Shown here: positions 3,081-42,979 of the stretch, piece by piece
Layout of the letters: every line of letters begins with the position of its first letter
Position numbering within the stretch: the first letter of the stretch is position 1
Assembly (NCBI GenBank): GCA_947458405.1
Contig: CANGZW010000006.1
Coordinates: 1 to 64,000 of the forward strand
Origin: Leptospiraceae bacterium
Lineage (GTDB): Bacteria; Spirochaetota; Leptospiria; Leptospirales; Leptospiraceae
Length of the DNA stretch: 64,000 nucleotides
Direction: 5' to 3'
The notes under the pieces: model-generated
Database searches by the model: none
The model's input: the letters and a program-made list of their open reading frames with translations, nothing else
Told to the model about the DNA's origin: nothing
Made by a program: the position numbers and the translations under genes

Positions 3081-5897
3081 CTACCCCAAAATCCCCTTCA
3101 AATACTGCCCTGTATATGAATTTTTAATCTTTACAATTTCTTCGGGAGTTCCCGTGCCTACCACATAACCTCCCCCGTCTCCCCCTTCAGGTCCCATATC
3201 TATGATATAGTCAGCACACTTGATAACATCTAAATTATGTTCAATAACTATCATGGAGTTTCCTTTTTCCATGAGTGTTTGTAGTACTTTCAATAATTTC
3301 TTAATATCATCAAAGTGAAGCCCGGTAGTCGGTTCATCCAATATATAAAGTGTCTTACCTGTGGGACGTTTAGAAAGTTCTGTGGCTAGTTTTATTCTCT
3401 GTGCTTCTCCCCCGCTAAAAGTGGTTGCTGCCTGTCCGAGTTTTATATAATCGAGTCCCACTTCACTTAAAGTATCTAACTTTCGTTTGAGCGATGGTAT
3501 ATTTTCAAAAAAAACAACCGCTTCTTCTACTGTCATGTCCAATACATCAAATATATTTTTTGTTTTGTATCTCACTTCTAGGGTTTCTCTGTTGTAACGT
3601 TTTCCCCCACATACATCACACACCACATAGACATCTGGTAAAAAATGCATTTCGATTTTTAAAATCCCATCTCCCTCACATTTTTCACACCTCCCTCCTG
3701 AAACATTAAAACTAAATCTTCCCGGTCCATATCCTCTGAGTTTGGCATCTTCGAGTCCAGTGTAGAGCTCTCTGATGGTTGCAAACAATCCAGTATAAGT
3801 GGCAGGATTTGATCTTGGGGTTCTCCCTATAGGAGATTGGTCTATACTGATAACCTTATCGATATACTTCATTCCCTCAATTTTTTTATGTTTACCACTC
3901 ACAACTTTAGCACGCATGATTCTAGCCGCCAATTCATTGTGTAAAATTTCATTTACTAGTGTAGATTTTCCACTACCCGAAACCCCAGTCACAACCGTAA
4001 GACACCCAAGAGGAAAGTTTACATCCACATTTCTCAAATTATTCTCAGAGGCACCAATAACTTTTAAAAATTGACCATTTCCCTTTCTACGCTCTTTGGG
4101 GATTTCTATAGAAATTTTACCAGATAAATACTTCCCCGTGACAGAATTTTTATTCTTTTTTATTTCTGAGGGAGTTCCTTCTGCTATCACACTCCCCCCA
4201 TGCACCCCCGCACCGGGTCCCATATCAATTATGTAGTCTGCTTCCTGCATGGTTTCTTCATCATGCTCAATGACCAAAACTGTATTACCTATATCCCGCA
4301 GGTCTTTGAGTGTATTGATCAGTTTTGTATTGTCTCTCTGGTGTAGTCCAATAGACGGTTCATCCAGAATATAGAGGACTCCCATGAGCCTTGAACCAAT
4401 CTGGGTCGCCAATCGTATTCTCTGTGCTTCTCCACCTGAGAGAGTTCCAGCACTTCTTTCTAAAGTGAGATACCCCACTCCCACATCATTTAAAAATTTT
4501 AGTCTTTGGATAATTTCTTTTAAGATAGGTTTCGCGATTATATCATCCGATCCTTTTAATTTCAAATTGCTGGAAAAATGGAGGGCTTTTTCTACACTTA
4601 GTGATACATAATCATAGATACCCAGTTTGTCTACTTTTACAGAGAGACTCTCAGGTTTGAGTCTTTTTCCTTCGCAAGAGGGACAGGGGTGATTTGTCAT
4701 AAAGGACTCATAATATTGTCTCATAGCATCCGACTTGGTTTCTTTGTATCTTCTGCGTAAATTCGGTATTACACCCTCAAAATATCTAGAAAACTCTCGG
4801 TGGGAATCTTCTTTTCTGAAGTCATAATCAATATTAATACTCGAATCGCCATACAGAATAATTTTTTTTGCAGTTTTAGGTAAATCCTTCCAGGCAGAGT
4901 TGATATCAAATTTTAGGCTTTTTGCTAACGCATGGATAGTAGCCATATACCAATATCCACCCGACTTTCCCCAAACCTCCAGACATCCATCAATGAGGGA
5001 AGTCTCGGGATCATTTACGATCAAATCCTCATCAAATTCCATAAGAGTTCCCAAACCATCACATTTACTACAGGCGCCTTGTGGAGAATTGAAAGAAAAA
5101 ATACGGGGTTCCAAATCGGGTATGGATATATTTTCACAATTAGGGCAACTCAAATTCTTGGAAAAAAAATAATCCTTATTCATATCATTGATGATGATAT
5201 TACCGTTACTCTCTTTTAAGGCAATTTCTACCGAATCACTCAGTCGACTACGTATTCCATCTTTGATAACAATTCTATCCACAACTATGTCTATTGATGA
5301 TTTAATATTTTTTTTGAGTATCACTTCTTCTTCAAGTGATACAACTTCTCCATTTACTCTTACCCGATTAAATCCATCTTTTCTTGCTTTTAAAAATACT
5401 TCTTTGTGCTCTCCTTTTTGAGAACTAATTACAGGGGAGAGAATCATGAGCTTAGCCCCTTCACCGAAATGTAAAATCCGTTCTATGATTTGATCGGTGC
5501 TCAAATTGGAAATAAGGGCACCACATTTATAACAGTGCGGCTTTCCAATTCTGGAGTACAATAATCTAATATAGTCATATATTTCAGTGACAGTGCCTAC
5601 TGTTGACCTCGGGTTACGATGAGTAGTTTTTTGCTCTATAGAAATGGCAGGACTCAAACCCTCGATTAAATCCACATCGGGCTTGTCCATTTGTCCCAAG
5701 AATTGCCTTGCGTAAGATGACAGACTTTCTACATATCTTCTCTGACCTTCTGCATAGATGGTATCAAAGGCAAGGGAAGACTTACCCGATCCGGATAGAC
5801 CTGTAATGACAACTAATTTGTCCCTAGGAATATCTAAGTTTATATTTTTAAGATTATGAGCCTTCGCTCCTCTAATTTTAATATGTGTCAGTGACAT
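3081..5897 (-). CDS. uvrA: UvrA, nucleotide excision repair ATPase
   Basis: DNA damage-recognition subunit of the UvrABC excinuclease, acting as a dimer with UvrB in the cytoplasm. At 938 residues it has the usual family length. Both ABC ATPase modules are visible. The first has Walker [10 protein letters not shown] near residue 33 and signature [12 protein letters not shown]; the second has GVSGSGKST and signature [12 protein letters not shown]. Cysteine pairs for zinc are present in the N-terminal half (CYKCG; CPNC) and in the C-terminal module (CEKCEGDG followed by CDVCGG). The start is the ATG at 5897, giving [11 protein letters not shown]. It is divergent from the flavin reductase gene across about 80 bases. 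Confidence 0.97.
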
Positions 5898-5928
5898 CTC
5901 TACCTCTCATCTCTCATTTTTTTTTAAA

Positions 5929-5957
5929 TTGACAGTAGGTCGAGAGAATTCTAAAAA
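5929..5957 (+). promoter_or_regulatory. Candidate sigma-70 type promoter for the flavin reductase gene
   Basis: TTGACA (5929-5934) is a perfect -35 hexamer, followed after 17 bases by TAAAAA (5952-5957). The ATG at 5978 lies about 20 bases downstream, with a purine-rich ribosome-binding site (GGGAGAAAG) between. The match of the -10 hexamer is only partial, so this is a prediction from sequence alone. Confidence 0.4.
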
Positions 5958-5977
5958 TTTTACAGGGAGAAAGAAGT

Positions 5978-6454
5978 ATGCCATCCACAGAAGATTTTAA
6001 AAAAAGTTTAAGTAGGTTTGCGTCGGGTGTGACAATAGTTACCTATTCCGATGGGAAAATCAAAGGGGGAATAACCGTATCCAGTTTTTCCTCACTCTCT
6101 ATGGATCCTCCCCTTATTTTATTTAATATTAATAAGTCAACTCCCAGTCATGAAAAACTAATAAGCTCTTCTCACTTTGCAGTACACATACTCTCTACTA
6201 CCCAGGAGGAACAATCCAATCAATTCAGTAGCTCAAAAACGGATAAAAATGAAATACTAAACTCCATCTCCTCGGAAATGATCAGCTCTTGTCCAATCCT
6301 ACCCGGTTTTTTATCTTTGCTTGTCTGTGAAAACCACAAGAGCTATGATGGAGGAGATCACACTATATTTTTGGGTAAAATTATTTCTGTAAAGACGGAT
6401 GAAGCCCGAGAACCACTTCTCTATTATAATAGAGCTTATCATACTCTAAAATAA
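5978..6454 (+). CDS. Flavin reductase-domain protein (HpaC/RutF-like)
   Basis: A 158-residue protein matching the flavin reductase-like domain, an FMN-binding split barrel that uses NAD(P)H to reduce free flavin for a partner oxygenase. Typical features are the start FKKSLSRFASGVTIVT, the segment GGITVSSFSSLSMDPPLILF, which forms the flavin-binding barrel strands, and SHFAVHIL further on. The C-terminal GGDHTIFLGKI is the usual GxHxIxxGxV motif. Length is normal for the family. No oxygenase is adjacent, so the partner is unknown. The start is set by the strong GGGAGAAAG site upstream. Confidence 0.85.
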   Translation: MPSTEDFKKSLSRFASGVTIVTYSDGKIKGGITVSSFSSLSMDPPLILFNINKSTPSHEKLISSSHFAVHILSTTQEEQSNQFSSSKTDKNEILNSISSEMISSCPILPGFLSLLVCENHKSYDGGDHTIFLGKIISVKTDEAREPLLYYNRAYHTLK

Positions 6455-36950: not shown

Positions 36951-38248
36951 TTTTTTTTTAGATTCAAAAAATTTATAAATTCATCTGAATCCCTTGTGAT
37001 TCCAAGGTGAGTGGAAAGAATTTTATCATTTTTATCTAATATGGCATAGTATGGAATCCCGTTGGTTCCAAATTTTTTCTCTTCAAATTCTTGGTTTGCA
37101 TCATCTTTTTCGGTTCCCCTATCCGTAAATAATTCTACAAGAATATACTTAGAAAGTTCTTTTTTAACTTCCTCTGTGTTTAGCACATTTTCTTCCATAT
37201 ACCTGCAATTCGTACAAATTACACCTGTAAAATTTACCAAGATTGGTTTTCCTGATTCGATTGCCTTACTCTTGGCTATGTCGAGATCTTCTATCCAAAC
37301 TAAATCTGTATTTTTATCCGAAAAATTATTTTGTTTGGGTGGCAGATATGCTTCCAATTCCCCTAAATTAGATCCTGTGATACCAAAAGTTAAATATATG
37401 ATAAGTGATACAAAAATAATAGAAAGGGTAATTTGATATTTGGATATTTTTTTAATTTGATTGTAAAAATTTTTAATATCCTCAAAAAAATCTAAGGTAT
37501 ATAGTGTATTTATTACTAAGAGAATTATTGTAATACTTAAAAAGATTTCTCTCGAAAGAATATTAAATCCCCAAATTAAGTCTGCATTACTAAAAAACTT
37601 TAATGAGGCTATAATTTCAAATATACCTAAAATTCCCCTAAATTTAGCATTCCACTTTCCATTTTTAGGAAGTCTTTCTAAAATCATCGGAAACATAGAT
37701 AAGAGTGTAAATGGAATGGAAAATGCAAGTCCATACCCAAACATTCCTATAAGTGGAAAAAACCATTCTCCTTTGGAGGCAGTGACCAATATACTTCCCA
37801 CAAAAGGCATTGTGCAAGTAAATGTTGCAATAGAGATTATAAATCCTTTTATCAAAATAGAAAAATAACCCGATCCGGAAACATTTTCAAGTTTGCTATA
37901 AAATAGAACCAAAGAGGGAGGCAGTAAAAAATCAAAACCGATTAGAGCATAGGCAAAGAATAAAAAAATGATTCCAATGCTAAAATTTAAAAAAGGATTG
38001 GTGGCTAATTTTGTAATACCAGAAGCCCCAAAAAAAATCGAGAATAGAATACCTAAAACAGAAAAAGTAAATATGATTCCGACAGAATAAATTACTGATT
38101 GCAATAAATAGTTTTTCTTTTTTTCCCCTTCTTTAGGTGTGAAAGCTGATACAGTGAAGGGAATCAAAGGAAACACACATGGATTTAAAAGAGACAACAA
38201 TCCAAAACCAAATGATATCCAAAAATAAGAAAATATACTTTCAAACAT
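36947..38248 (-). CDS. Thiol:disulfide interchange protein, DsbD-like
   Basis: A 433-residue inner-membrane protein that moves electrons from cytoplasmic thioredoxin to periplasmic partners. The CcdA-like membrane domain shows NPCVFPLIPFTVSAF in the first helix and FTCTMPFVG in a later one, with the two redox Cys residues. About eight membrane helices are visible. A C-terminal thioredoxin domain has VNFTGVICTNCRYMEENVL-type active site (CTNC). The N-terminal periplasmic DsbD-alpha domain of classical DsbD is absent, so it is a short form. It overlaps the symporter gene by 8 bases and the following lipoprotein gene by 4. Confidence 0.88.
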   Translation of the reverse strand: MFESIFSYFWISFGFGLLSLLNPCVFPLIPFTVSAFTPKEGEKKKNYLLQSVIYSVGIIFTFSVLGILFSIFFGASGITKLATNPFLNFSIGIIFLFFAYALIGFDFLLPPSLVLFYSKLENVSGSGYFSILIKGFIISIATFTCTMPFVGSILVTASKGEWFFPLIGMFGYGLAFSIPFTLLSMFPMILERLPKNGKWNAKFRGILGIFEIIASLKFFSNADLIWGFNILSREIFLSITIILLVINTLYTLDFFEDIKNFYNQIKKISKYQITLSIIFVSLIIYLTFGITGSNLGELEAYLPPKQNNFSDKNTDLVWIEDLDIAKSKAIESGKPILVNFTGVICTNCRYMEENVLNTEEVKKELSKYILVELFTDRGTEKDDANQEFEEKKFGTNGIPYYAILDKNDKILSTHLGITRDSDEFINFLNLKKN

Positions 38249-39536
38249 TTTTCACCTTCCTTTTGTTTTCAGATTCCTGAATCAGTGTTGCCACTACCAT
38301 ATCTCCAGTAACATTGACAGTCGTTCTGAACATATCTAATATGCGATCCACTGCGAAAATAAGTGCAATACCCTCTGTGGGAACTCCTATCGAGTTTAAA
38401 ACTATCACTAACATCACCATACCCGCACCGGGAACTCCAGCCGATCCAATACTTGCGAGTACTGCAGTTATCACTATGGTTGCCTGATCGGATAGGGTTA
38501 GTTCCATTCCCATAGCACCCGCTATAAATACCGCCGCCACCGACTGATAAAGACTGGTTCCATCCATATTTACTGTGGCACCAACAGGTAATACAAAACT
38601 GGCGACTTCATTGGAAATGCCCAATTCCTTTTCACAGGCATCCATTGTCACTGGTAAGGTTGCTGAACTCGAACTTGTCGAGAAAGCTACCATCTGAACG
38701 GGAAGAATTTTACGAAAGAATGTAAAATATTTTTTGCCGGCAAGAATTACAATTGCTCCATATATAACATAGACCATAATAGCCAGACCTATCAATACAG
38801 ATAAAGAATATAATCCCAGGGCTTTGAATAAATCGATAGCATTTGCAATACTATCCCCCGCAAATTCTACAATTAAACTTGAAATCAATGCAAACACTCC
38901 CAAGGGAGCAAATTCCATTATAATATCTATCATCTTTAAAATAACTTCATTTAAACTTTCAAAAAGAATTCGAACCCCATTTACTTTTTCTACGGGCGTC
39001 ACCACCATAGCAATTCCAAATATCATGGCAAAAACTATGACTGGTAACATTTGTGTGTTATCACTTGCAGATTTAAAAATATTTGTGGGGATCATATCTA
39101 CAAAAAATTGCATGGGATGAGCCTTGGACTTTATTTGCTCTGAGGCATCAGCTGTTTTTTTGGAAACATTTTCTGCGTACTTAGCCCGTATTTCTTCCCT
39201 TTTAGTAGCAGAAAGTGCTTTTCCCGGATCTATAATATTCACAATAAACAACCCGAGTAGTACAGCAACAAATGTCGTTGTGATATAGATAGCAATAGTT
39301 TTTACCCCAATACGTTTAAATGTATTTATATCTCTTAGACTCGAAACTCCACTCACAAGGGAAATAAAAACAAGGGGAACCGCCATTACTTTTAACATAT
39401 TTAAAAACATGAGACCAATAGGCTTAATCCAGGTAATTGCAAAGGATCCCATACTGTAATATACCAAGAGAAGCCCAAAAATTGCACCAAACAGAATGCC
39501 CGATAAAATTTTTACATGTAAGGGGATTTTTTTCAC
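38241..39536 (-). CDS. Na+/H+-dicarboxylate (glutamate/aspartate) symporter, DAACS family
   Basis: A 431-residue inner-membrane carrier of the dicarboxylate/amino acid:cation symporter family (GltP/GltT/DctA). Hallmarks are the Ser-rich hairpin FSTSSSSATLPVT, the NMDGTSLYQ motif for Na+ and substrate binding, the second hairpin GSAGVPGAG and the C-terminal DRILDMFRTTVNVTGD, which contacts the substrate carboxylate. Eight transmembrane helices are expected. DRxxDMxRTTxNVxGD suits acidic amino acids as well as C4-dicarboxylates, so the ligand is not settled. It overlaps the receptor-channel fusion gene by 4 bases, suggesting they share a ligand. Confidence 0.93.
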   Translation of the reverse strand: MKKIPLHVKILSGILFGAIFGLLLVYYSMGSFAITWIKPIGLMFLNMLKVMAVPLVFISLVSGVSSLRDINTFKRIGVKTIAIYITTTFVAVLLGLFIVNIIDPGKALSATKREEIRAKYAENVSKKTADASEQIKSKAHPMQFFVDMIPTNIFKSASDNTQMLPVIVFAMIFGIAMVVTPVEKVNGVRILFESLNEVILKMIDIIMEFAPLGVFALISSLIVEFAGDSIANAIDLFKALGLYSLSVLIGLAIMVYVIYGAIVILAGKKYFTFFRKILPVQMVAFSTSSSSATLPVTMDACEKELGISNEVASFVLPVGATVNMDGTSLYQSVAAVFIAGAMGMELTLSDQATIVITAVLASIGSAGVPGAGMVMLVIVLNSIGVPTEGIALIFAVDRILDMFRTTVNVTGDMVVATLIQESENKRKVKNV

Positions 39537-42500
39537 AGAGTTACCTCTTTTTTATGCTGACTGTCATCGTCATCATCTTCAATTCCTAAGATTGCGTATA
39601 ACTTTAATTTAAATTTCTCAAACCAAGATACCTTTTTAGGGGGAGGCTCAGCCATAGCTTCCTGTTTTTTGTTTTGTAACACATCTGTCCTTTGCGTCAT
39701 AACTTTCTTAACATTTCTTAAGATTTCAGGGTGCTTTTCCAGAAAAGGATCCACATCTTCTTTGGTAATTTCATAGACTATTGAATAGGAATCCGCCACT
39801 ATATTTGCGGTTCGAACTGCTCCTGTGAGTAGCCCCATCTCCCCAAAGAAATTTCCGGCTCCCAAACGGGCTACATTGAGAAATCCCCCTTTTTCTAGTG
39901 GTACCTGAACTGTAAATACCCCTTCAGAAATTACATACATGGTAAATTTTTGTTCTCCTGCTTTAACTACCATTTCTCCCGGCTGAAACTCTAATGCTTT
40001 TACTTTATGACTTAAATCTTTTTTCTCTTCGGGGGTAAATGTTTCGAATATGTCAATTTCCCTTACCAATGCAAGTGGTGTTTTAGCATCTTCCGTATCC
40101 TGTTTTTGGCCCTTGAACAAATGCAATTCCTGTCTCTGGAAGGCTGGAGAAATCCCCGCCCTATGCAGATGTATCCAGACATTTGACCATACAGATTTTC
40201 TGACTGCATTTTTCTTGGTGTAATCCTTAAAACAGTAGCCAAAAAGATAATCGGCAGCATACTCCGAATATTCATTAAACCTTGCATATGGCTCGGGTTT
40301 TGTCAGGACTCCGTCACTACTCATAAGTGCGTCTAATAATACCTTTACAACCCTACGGGGAGGAACGGATGGATCAATGTGAATAGTAAACCACATTTCT
40401 ACAATACCATCGGGCAGACTATAATTGTAAATGGAAGCCTCACTGGCAACACTATTGGGAATACTCAAAACTATTCCTGCACGGGTCGTGAGTCGCGTAG
40501 TACGCCATGTTATATCGACAACCTTACCCTCTTCCATACTGCCTATTTTTATCCAATCCCCAACCCTAAATGGTCTTTCAATGTTTATGGCAATCCCCGA
40601 AAATACATTGGAAATATTTACCTGAATCGCAAGACCTATAATCATAGCTACAACACCGGATGTTGCTAATAGACTAGTAATTTTTTGGTCATACACAAAT
40701 GCTATAATACTAAAAAAAGTAAGCATATAAATTACAAAATTTAAGAATTTTCTTACAACAGTCGGAATTTTATGATCTGTTTTAAATTCTAATGGTAACC
40801 ATATAAACTTTTCAATAGATTGAGTTAAGGTAACTGCGGGAACAATCCACCAAAATAAATCATATGCGGAAAGTGTTATTTTTACCATAGTAATATTATT
40901 ACTTTCGATAAATGAATCTATGAATTGTATTTCAGATGAACTTAAAGTAAGATAAGCAAGAATGGTTTGTACCATCCAAAATGTAGTAGCATATCCCTTG
41001 TAAATTTTTAGACTCGATAGGATTCCAATCATAATCATTCCAATGATAGAAACAACCATTATAAATAAAGAAAGTGTATATGGCAAAAACCTTCTCATGG
41101 AAATCTCATCTTTTTTGATTCTCACGCCCATATTAAATCTTGAATAATCTATGGATGCGGTTCGAAGTCCGATAAATCGGGGAGAACCGAGAGTGGTTTT
41201 TTCTAGAATATCTTGAAAAAACCACTCGGAAGCAATTTTAAACCCACTATAGGGACTTAGAATTTTTTTATTGTGTATGTCATAATTTTTGCCATGATAT
41301 TTTGACATACCTACTGTATCAATTACGTAGATTAAATTTTCACGTGTCAATGTTTTATGAAAAAAGCTAACACCCAACGCATTTTCTTCTAATACATATT
41401 TAACAGGCAATGAATTTGACTTAAAAGTTCCCTTTACGTGATACAATTTATAATGCATAAGATCTTCTTTTGAAGTTTCTGTATCAATAGGTTTTTCCAA
41501 TTGTACTTCAGATATAGAGTTAACAAATTCTATATCCTCGGGTCCAATATTACCGCTGTATCTAAACCATAGGTAAAAATCTAAATTATATGTTAAATTA
41601 GATATACTTAATTCGCTTATATCGTTAATTTCTATTCCGGTATAAACTACGTTTGTTTTATACAAATATTTGTTATCAAAATACAAAACCCTTTCCGTTT
41701 TTAGAGCATTTTCTAAATCAAAAATTTCATTTATATCCTTCACAACCTGAAGCTGTGTTAAGGCAGAGATAATATTTTTATTTTTATAGACACCGATAGA
41801 CACCGGTTTGGGAGAGTCGCCGTTTTCAAAATAGTTTAATCCTGTAGCCCCCTCGACTGCCTGCCCAACTGAATCAAGAGATTCCAAATAGTCTTTAATT
41901 TTAAGTCTTTCTCCTTCTACTTCCTTCTCATTACCAGTTATGTCTGTATTTTTGATCGATTCCACCAAGAGCATTATACTATCATAGGCATATACAGATC
42001 TCCAGTCCGGCTCAATTGGATAGGATTTGATATATAATTCTTTAAAATACTGAGCCTTTTGATTAGCATTGTCAAAAATTAAAGGTGTGGTAACATAAAT
42101 ACCATTAGAATAATATCCCGGAGTTTCTTTTTCTCTTTTGGTCTGAGAAAGTGCATTTAAAAATCCAGAAGAGGCAAAAGAGTCCGGTGCAATCAATGGA
42201 TTGAGTATCCCCGCATCTTTGAGTAATTTTAAAAATATTGCCCCGTTTGCACCACTCATAGATAAAAAAATCATTTGTTTATCATTTTGAGTCTTAAGAG
42301 TCTCAATGATATCTTTCATCTCTTTTAATTTGGTGGTCTCATCTGACTTAAAGGAAAAGGATTTTGTTACCCCCAAGCCTACTTCTCTGGCAGTTTTTAT
42401 AAATACTTCTGCCAGGTATTTACCATAGACTTCCTCTTCACTGATGATTTTGATTTGGTCTTTCTGGAGAATTTTTTTGATGTAATTCGCCAAAAATCTA

Positions 42501-42979
42501 CCCTGTGAATTGTCGTTAAATATAACCCTATAATACCATTCATTATCCTTAGTTAATTCAATATTAGTAGAAGCGGGAGTGATGGCGGGAATTTTATTTT
42601 CTTTGTACACAGGAGCCCCTGCATTTGAACAGGCACTGCTATTATGTCCAATAACCGCCACAGCTCTGCCATTTTTTACAATTTCTTCCGCTTTTTCTTT
42701 GGCTAGTTCAGGGTTATTTTGATCATCATAGATATCTAAAACAATTTTTCTACCATTGACGCCCCCCATTTTATTGAGAGGCTCAATAAATAAATTTATT
42801 CCATTCACATATGCCTTGCCATTCGCCCCAGATTCTCCCGACATAGGGCCCACAACAGCTATATGAATACTCCCTTGTGTATAAATCAGGTAAACTTTTA
42901 CGAGGGTATATATAATAATGCATAAAGAAAAGAATAAGATTAATATAGATTTTATATTTTTTACTGAGAATAACTTCAT
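39533..42979 (-). CDS. Periplasmic-binding domain, MscS channel and cyclic-nucleotide-binding domain fusion
   Basis: A 1148-residue membrane protein. Residues 10-34 are an N-terminal anchor or signal. About 37-405 is a type-1 periplasmic binding domain of the LivK/branched-chain amino-acid type (HIAVVGPMSGESGANG, DDQNNPELAKEKAEEI, VIGHNSSACSNA). About 440-625 is a beta-rich module including NLTYNLDFYLWFRYSG and IDYSRFNMGVRIKKDE just before the first membrane helix, reminiscent of pentameric ligand-gated channel ectodomains. Helices follow at about 632-655, 663-682, 700-720, 745-763 and 766-798. The last is the MscS pore helix, with SGVVAMIIGLAIQ and PFRVGDWIKIG, then the MscS beta-domain TRAGIVLSIPNS. 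Residues 985-1095 form a cNMP-binding domain, with FGE (1045-1047) and Arg1056. Predicted ligand- and nucleotide-modulated channel. All domains appear intact. Confidence 0.9.
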   Translation of the reverse strand: MKLFSVKNIKSILILFFSLCIIIYTLVKVYLIYTQGSIHIAVVGPMSGESGANGKAYVNGINLFIEPLNKMGGVNGRKIVLDIYDDQNNPELAKEKAEEIVKNGRAVAVIGHNSSACSNAGAPVYKENKIPAITPASTNIELTKDNEWYYRVIFNDNSQGRFLANYIKKILQKDQIKIISEEEVYGKYLAEVFIKTAREVGLGVTKSFSFKSDETTKLKEMKDIIETLKTQNDKQMIFLSMSGANGAIFLKLLKDAGILNPLIAPDSFASSGFLNALSQTKREKETPGYYSNGIYVTTPLIFDNANQKAQYFKELYIKSYPIEPDWRSVYAYDSIMLLVESIKNTDITGNEKEVEGERLKIKDYLESLDSVGQAVEGATGLNYFENGDSPKPVSIGVYKNKNIISALTQLQVVKDINEIFDLENALKTERVLYFDNKYLYKTNVVYTGIEINDISELSISNLTYNLDFYLWFRYSGNIGPEDIEFVNSISEVQLEKPIDTETSKEDLMHYKLYHVKGTFKSNSLPVKYVLEENALGVSFFHKTLTRENLIYVIDTVGMSKYHGKNYDIHNKKILSPYSGFKIASEWFFQDILEKTTLGSPRFIGLRTASIDYSRFNMGVRIKKDEISMRRFLPYTLSLFIMVVSIIGMIMIGILSSLKIYKGYATTFWMVQTILAYLTLSSSEIQFIDSFIESNNITMVKITLSAYDLFWWIVPAVTLTQSIEKFIWLPLEFKTDHKIPTVVRKFLNFVIYMLTFFSIIAFVYDQKITSLLATSGVVAMIIGLAIQVNISNVFSGIAINIERPFRVGDWIKIGSMEEGKVVDITWRTTRLTTRAGIVLSIPNSVASEASIYNYSLPDGIVEMWFTIHIDPSVPPRRVVKVLLDALMSSDGVLTKPEPYARFNEYSEYAADYLFGYCFKDYTKKNAVRKSVWSNVWIHLHRAGISPAFQRQELHLFKGQKQDTEDAKTPLALVREIDIFETFTPEEKKDLSHKVKALEFQPGEMVVKAGEQKFTMYVISEGVFTVQVPLEKGGFLNVARLGAGNFFGEMGLLTGAVRTANIVADSYSIVYEITKEDVDPFLEKHPEILRNVKKVMTQRTDVLQNKKQEAMAEPPPKKVSWFEKFKLKLYAILGIEDDDDDSQHKKEVTL

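Follow-up and report, generated by a model that had tools for sequence, protein, structure and literature searches.

The window analysed here is a 64,000-nucleotide stretch of a Leptospiraceae genome. On its minus strand, a single open reading frame at 39533-42979 runs from ATG to TGA without internal stops and encodes a protein of 1148 residues. From the ORF, Pfam and full-length homologues, the order within this chain is a type I periplasmic binding protein (PBP-I) domain, a Cys-loop ligand-binding domain, a five-helix MscS pore and a cyclic-nucleotide (cNMP)-binding domain. Pfam matches above the cut-off were obtained for Peripla_BP_6 at residues 37-349 (E 6.5e-39), MS_channel_2nd at 789-854 (E 2e-16), MS_channel_3rd at 864-944 (E 5.2e-6) and cNMP_binding at 997-1083 (E 1.8e-16). 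A first-pass annotation of this DNA had placed a LivK-type binding domain, an MscS pore and a cNMP domain in one 1148-residue protein and had proposed a Pfam search; the uninterrupted frame agrees with its coordinates and domain limits, and the three parts were matched in the order that it gave. The chain starts with a hydrophobic helix (residues 6-34; 42878-42964, minus strand), predicted to be an uncleaved anchor or a signal peptide. A lipobox is absent from this N-terminus, which differs in this respect from the relatives L012-L015 described below. The next gene on the same strand encodes a sodium:dicarboxylate symporter of the SDF family (38241-39536), which overlaps the channel stop by GTGA, and it is likely co-translated with the channel gene in the window. 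When neighbourhoods were compared between genomes, the symporter was not kept next to the relatives of the channel gene. A conserved operon partner was dropped as a candidate, as the neighbours vary across genomes with the exception of a tandem copy lacking the cNMP domain.

The periplasmic binding domain (residues 37-400; 41780-42871, minus strand) is defined by Pfam, fold and conservation. It has the two-lobed Peripla_BP_6 fold and the ligand-binding Ser/Thr of the LivK group of type I PBPs. S115, the equivalent of LivK Ser79, occurs in all 29 rows of the fused-family alignment with a residue at this position, and T138 occurs in 20 of 30 rows. The full-length structure model of the window protein reached a pTM of 0.57 with low confidence in the pore region, and its top 50 Foldseek matches were PBP-type folds, the closest PDB folds being leucine-binding proteins. 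Position 266, equivalent to LivK Glu226, is variable in the fused family, so ligands may differ among its members. The adjoining SDF symporter points to a dicarboxylate as ligand, which we rate as a weak lead since the symporter is not conserved beside the relatives.

The LivK-type domain had been recognized correctly in the first-pass annotation but does not make up the ectodomain alone, and the domain that follows it (residues 404-623; 41111-41770, minus strand) was overlooked. Neither Pfam nor NCBIfam names this middle domain in the window protein, and a direct HMM profile search of it against the PDB gave chance matches only, with no pentameric ligand-gated ion channel (pLGIC). Homology was therefore tested via PBP-pLGIC intermediates and via the fold. 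Proteins of a sister family (L012-L015, 689-830 aa) align with the window protein over its residues ~28-559/650, beyond which their chains run on into another membrane domain, which matches Pfam Neur_chan_memb in L013-L015 (E 1.2e-8 in L015). A profile of the ligand-binding domain (LBD) and membrane region of the PBP-pLGIC relatives finds ELIC, GlyR and GABA-A chains from E 2.7e-18, and judged by these matches L012-L015 are genuine pLGICs, namely PBP-fused Cys-loop channels. With the PBP removed, BLASTP of the middle domain against pLGIC ligand-binding domains gave 24.8% over 218 aa with an E-value of 1.6e-20, computed in a four-sequence subject set. In hhalign, the middle domain scored 98.8% against pLGIC ectodomains (E 8.9e-17), compared with at most 9.6% for 30 column-shuffled controls, and E reached 1.2e-24 with 31 fused members. 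The closest pLGICs (L143-L148, 734-796 aa), encoded by giant sulfur bacteria and Desulfobacterota in genomes that also hold the fused family, share 31-38% identity with the window protein in the middle domain. One of them, L144, matches Neur_chan_LBD (8e-4) and then Neur_chan_memb (2.2e-3), both weaker than the Pfam cut-offs.

As the full-length Foldseek search had returned PBP-type folds, the fold of the middle domain was read from a separate model. Residues 401-661 were predicted from fused-family rows only, with neither templates nor pLGIC rows as input, and reached a pLDDT of 82.8. The top 50 matches of this model among solved structures were all AChBP or GABA-A receptor (E ~4e-9, probability 1.00), with a modest TM-score of ~0.59 by target (AChBP) and an rmsd of ~6, so that the overall arrangement is imperfect. 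Sequence comparisons and predicted fold agree in identifying residues ~404-623 as the ligand-binding domain of a Cys-loop (nicotinic-type) receptor, and the window protein has in this the nicotinic-type beta-sandwich typical of pLGICs. The domain is kept in every full-length member across phyla, and Y446, G448, W471-F472-R473, N487, D554 and G557 are invariant in the fused alignment.

The pro-loop proline has been described as the only absolutely conserved residue of the Cys-loop superfamily (PMC4795631). Comparison of motifs with the pLGIC relatives located the lost pro-loop site at residues 520-536 (41372-41422, minus strand): the P-x-D motif is present in 10 of 10 PBP-pLGIC relatives and in none of 34 fused members, and Pro 525 of the window protein is not conserved (11 of 31 aligned members). 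The protein lacks the four-helix pore of pLGICs as well, with no Neur_chan_memb match and an MscS pore instead. The loss of P-x-D coincides with the exchange of the pore, as expected if the ectodomain no longer touches a pLGIC pore. The fusion point lies directly after the final ectodomain strand, which is the boundary between ectodomain and membrane; the PBP/Cys-loop ectodomain is cut at a natural boundary and set on a different pore. Sequences that mix pLGIC fragments with unrelated ones have been treated as possible assembly errors (PMC4795631), which may explain why such fused proteins escaped notice.

Five YnaI-like membrane helices are predicted beyond this boundary (residues 634-656, 658-692, 696-734, 740-762 and the pore helix 768-797; 40589-41080, minus strand). 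The first-pass annotation had reported the MscS pore and beta domain, but not the four helices ahead of the pore helix. In phmmer, residues 638-921 align to residues 13-297 of E. coli YnaI. M779 and L783 occupy the hydrophobic gate positions of MscS; among 31 aligned members, G782, A784, N788 and N791 are invariant and L783 is found in 30. The MscS beta domain and the C-terminal alpha/beta domain follow at residues 789-944 (40148-40615, minus strand) according to Pfam. The cyclic-nucleotide-binding domain (CNBD; residues 975-1105, 39665-40057, minus strand) is supported by Pfam and conservation and carries an FGE...RT phosphate-binding motif. The FGE (1045-1047) and Arg 1056 had been called intact; they are present here, and none of the 26 aligned relatives that have a CNBD deviates at these positions, which include the phosphate-binding pair E1047 and R1056. 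The protein thereby shows the features of bCNG channels, an MscS pore with beta domain and a C-terminal cNMP domain with the phosphate-binding Glu/Arg. The layout of the C-terminal half (residues ~624-1148), apparently a complete five-helix channel of this type, recurs in several stand-alone bCNG proteins from the same search, which have five transmembrane helices and ~500 aa. With 26 class III nucleotide cyclase matches (PF00211) in the 3.9 Mb genome (G000), a cyclic-nucleotide second messenger is likely present in the host, and its cyclic-nucleotide system is apparently rich.

The family was recovered by an alignment-based scan of genome contigs, while a scan with the single protein gave no match. 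Full-length relatives share the domain order at 42-53% identity. They were found in Leptospiraceae (L008/L055 and L009/L056, with L010/L058 and L011/L079 interrupted by contig ends), in Thiomargarita, Thioploca, Parabeggiatoa, Halobeggiatoa and other Thiotrichaceae, and in Desulfobacterota (L064, L077, L083). Copies on contigs of 4.8-8 Mb comprise, by Pfam, PBP, MscS and cNMP domains in L160-L162 and PBP and MscS domains in L163 and L164. The first-pass annotation had called for a comparison of homologues and had named, as grounds for abandoning its claim, a frameshift or assembly join, or homologues in which the parts never share one chain. Neither applies, as the order is conserved in spirochaetes, giant sulfur bacteria and sulfate reducers, and same-order full-length homologues on independent assemblies of several phyla, some on these large contigs, exclude a frameshift or join. 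The ligand-binding domain was detected in 31 of 43 genomes in the family of the sulfur bacterium carrying L060 (maximum 16 matches per genome) and in 38 of 291 genomes in the class of L083, counts that take in pLGIC-type proteins, from which the fused proteins are separated by ORF length (~970-1200 aa against 730-830). Among 393 genomes of the window's own phylum, the fused form was seen only in G000 and a single genus of the same family. A tree places the fused rows on one side of a branch with a support of 62/53 and weakly favours a single origin of the fusion; at such support, a single swap is not proven. The copy L011/L079 (G029) has an in-frame TAA within the ligand-binding domain and ends at a contig edge, and may be decayed or contain a sequencing error. 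The longest branch among the fused rows belongs to L081 (8247-11684), a divergent protein of full architecture; around its ectodomain/membrane junction, at about residues 518-650, several helices are predicted within a long run of hydrophobic sequence.

In several sulfur bacteria, a second gene of 968-1012 aa lies immediately upstream in the same orientation and encodes PBP, Cys-loop and MscS parts without a CNBD (L062, L065, L067, L068, L072, L073, L149, L164). These CNBD-less copies form one clade with a support of 80/78, or 100/100 without L149. The tandem copies suggest heteromeric channels of CNBD-bearing and CNBD-less subunits, with the CNBD-less copy as a candidate subunit.

Taken together, we consider it rather probable that the protein is a ligand-sensing ion channel created by a natural domain swap, in which the periplasmic half of a PBP-fused Cys-loop receptor was joined, presumably in this direction, to a complete bCNG-type channel with solute and cNMP gating. 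The PBP-I domain would sit on top and the nicotinic-type beta-sandwich below, joined to the five helices, the MscS pore and the cytoplasmic cNMP domain. The PBP would bind a small solute, probably amino-acid-like, and its closure would be passed to a ring of Cys-loop domains, which would pull the first membrane helix and thereby bias the MscS pore; from the inside, opening would be set by cAMP or cGMP bound to the cytoplasmic domain. That an outside ligand and an inside cyclic nucleotide both gate the pore, as proposed before, is reasonable from this anatomy and likely. Since Cys-loop rings are five-fold and MscS rings seven-fold, the ectodomains must either form a rebuilt ring or need no classical one. 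The fuller version, in which a Cys-loop ectodomain freed from its pentameric pore drives a heptameric MscS-type pore under joint control of periplasmic solute and cNMP, with CNBD+/CNBD- heteromers in giant sulfur bacteria, is held more tentatively and falls somewhat short of an even chance.

The absence of the pore-coupling pro-loop from all 34 fused members would also fit a Cys-loop domain that is a mere spacer or oligomerisation collar, with the PBP as sensor of a receptor-modulated bCNG gated mainly by cNMP, and the key residues retained in PBP and CNBD agree with this. However, the residues from Y446 to G557 that are invariant across phyla exceed the needs of a spacer, and we regard this explanation as unlikely. 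Channel-independent roles have been reported for some MscS-like proteins (PMC6261518, PMC4440785), and together with the tandem copies lacking a CNBD they lend some credit to a non- or weakly conducting transducer that signals from the periplasmic receptor to the cytoplasmic cNMP domain. The strong conservation of the pore helix (G782, L783, A784, N788, N791) and the lack of an output domain behind the CNBD make it the most improbable of the readings considered. An MscS-family safety valve gated by osmotic pressure or tension, with outer domains that only tune the threshold and chemical ligands that are not the main trigger, would account for the conserved gate positions M779/L783 and the YnaI-like helix arrangement, but hardly for a large conserved periplasmic receptor, an intact CNBD and up to 16 LBD matches per genome in the giant-sulfur-bacteria family, which is more like chemosensory receptors; it is improbable, if less so than the transducer.

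Ionotropic glutamate receptors carry a PBP-type ectodomain on an ion channel, and an analogy to them had been drawn for the window protein. It holds for the PBP ectodomain on a channel, in concept only, as the second ectodomain and the pore family differ, and it implies no common pore ancestry. The nearest known relatives are instead the PBP-I-fused prokaryotic Cys-loop receptors (ART-LGIC) described in 2004 by Tasneem et al. (PMC549065). With these, the window protein has the N-terminal order of PBP-I and Cys-loop domain in common, at the 31-38% identity in the latter given above, whereas their four-helix pentameric pore is swapped for a five-helix MscS pore and a cNMP domain, and the pro-loop motif is gone (0/34). 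The bCNG channels (Caldwell et al. 2010, cited in PMC4560390) resemble its C-terminal half in their five helices, MscS beta domain, cNMP domain, ~500 aa and equal order, but the window protein adds a periplasmic PBP and Cys-loop ectodomain of ~600 residues, and the cNMP domain has been lost from some of the tandem copies. YnaI of the five-helix MscS family corresponds to the pore part only and has neither ectodomain nor cNMP domain. By membership, the protein belongs to the bCNG-type channels, with a new ectodomain, and not to the Cys-loop receptors, since two defining features of the latter fail, although its ectodomain descends from such a receptor. The first-pass annotation had also stated that PBP-receptor fusions and MscS-CNB fusions are known separately, as they are in the form of PBP-pLGICs (PMC549065) and bCNG channels (PMC4560390), and that it knew of no described protein with the exact order. 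In our literature search, which covered few subscription papers, we likewise found no description of it, nor any report of a Cys-loop ectodomain on an MscS pore. As it recurs in spirochaetes, in giant sulfur bacteria and in sulfate reducers, the arrangement appears to be a genuine class of ligand-sensing channel that has not been described before.

In animals, Cys-loop receptors mediate fast synaptic signalling, and the way in which the ectodomain acts on the pore has long been studied. Closely related ectodomains that share a genome but sit either on their own four-helix pore or on an unrelated MscS pore amount to the decisive experiment, run by evolution. With the coupling loop lost together with the pore change, coupling rules and tolerance of symmetry (five-fold against seven-fold) become directly testable. 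The up to 16 domain matches in one genome suggest a large, unstudied set of receptor-channels in giant sulfur bacteria.

SBP_bac_5-like peptide-binding genes adjoin the PBP-pLGIC genes in L144, L145, L147 and L148 (Pfam-confirmed in L145), and in L150 such a gene (4511-6088) lies between two PBP-Cys-loop-MscS genes, suggesting these proteins as a possible shared sensory partner. Tasneem et al. described PBP-II proteins as separate neighbours of pLGICs, not fused to them (PMC549065). In the spirochaete genomes G010, G117 and G055, four loci (L050, L051, L052, L054) encode a pLGIC followed by a C-terminal SBP_bac_5-like domain in one chain, confirmed by Pfam for L051 as Neur_chan_memb and then SBP_bac_5, which gives the pLGIC a second receptor, placed on the extracellular tail.
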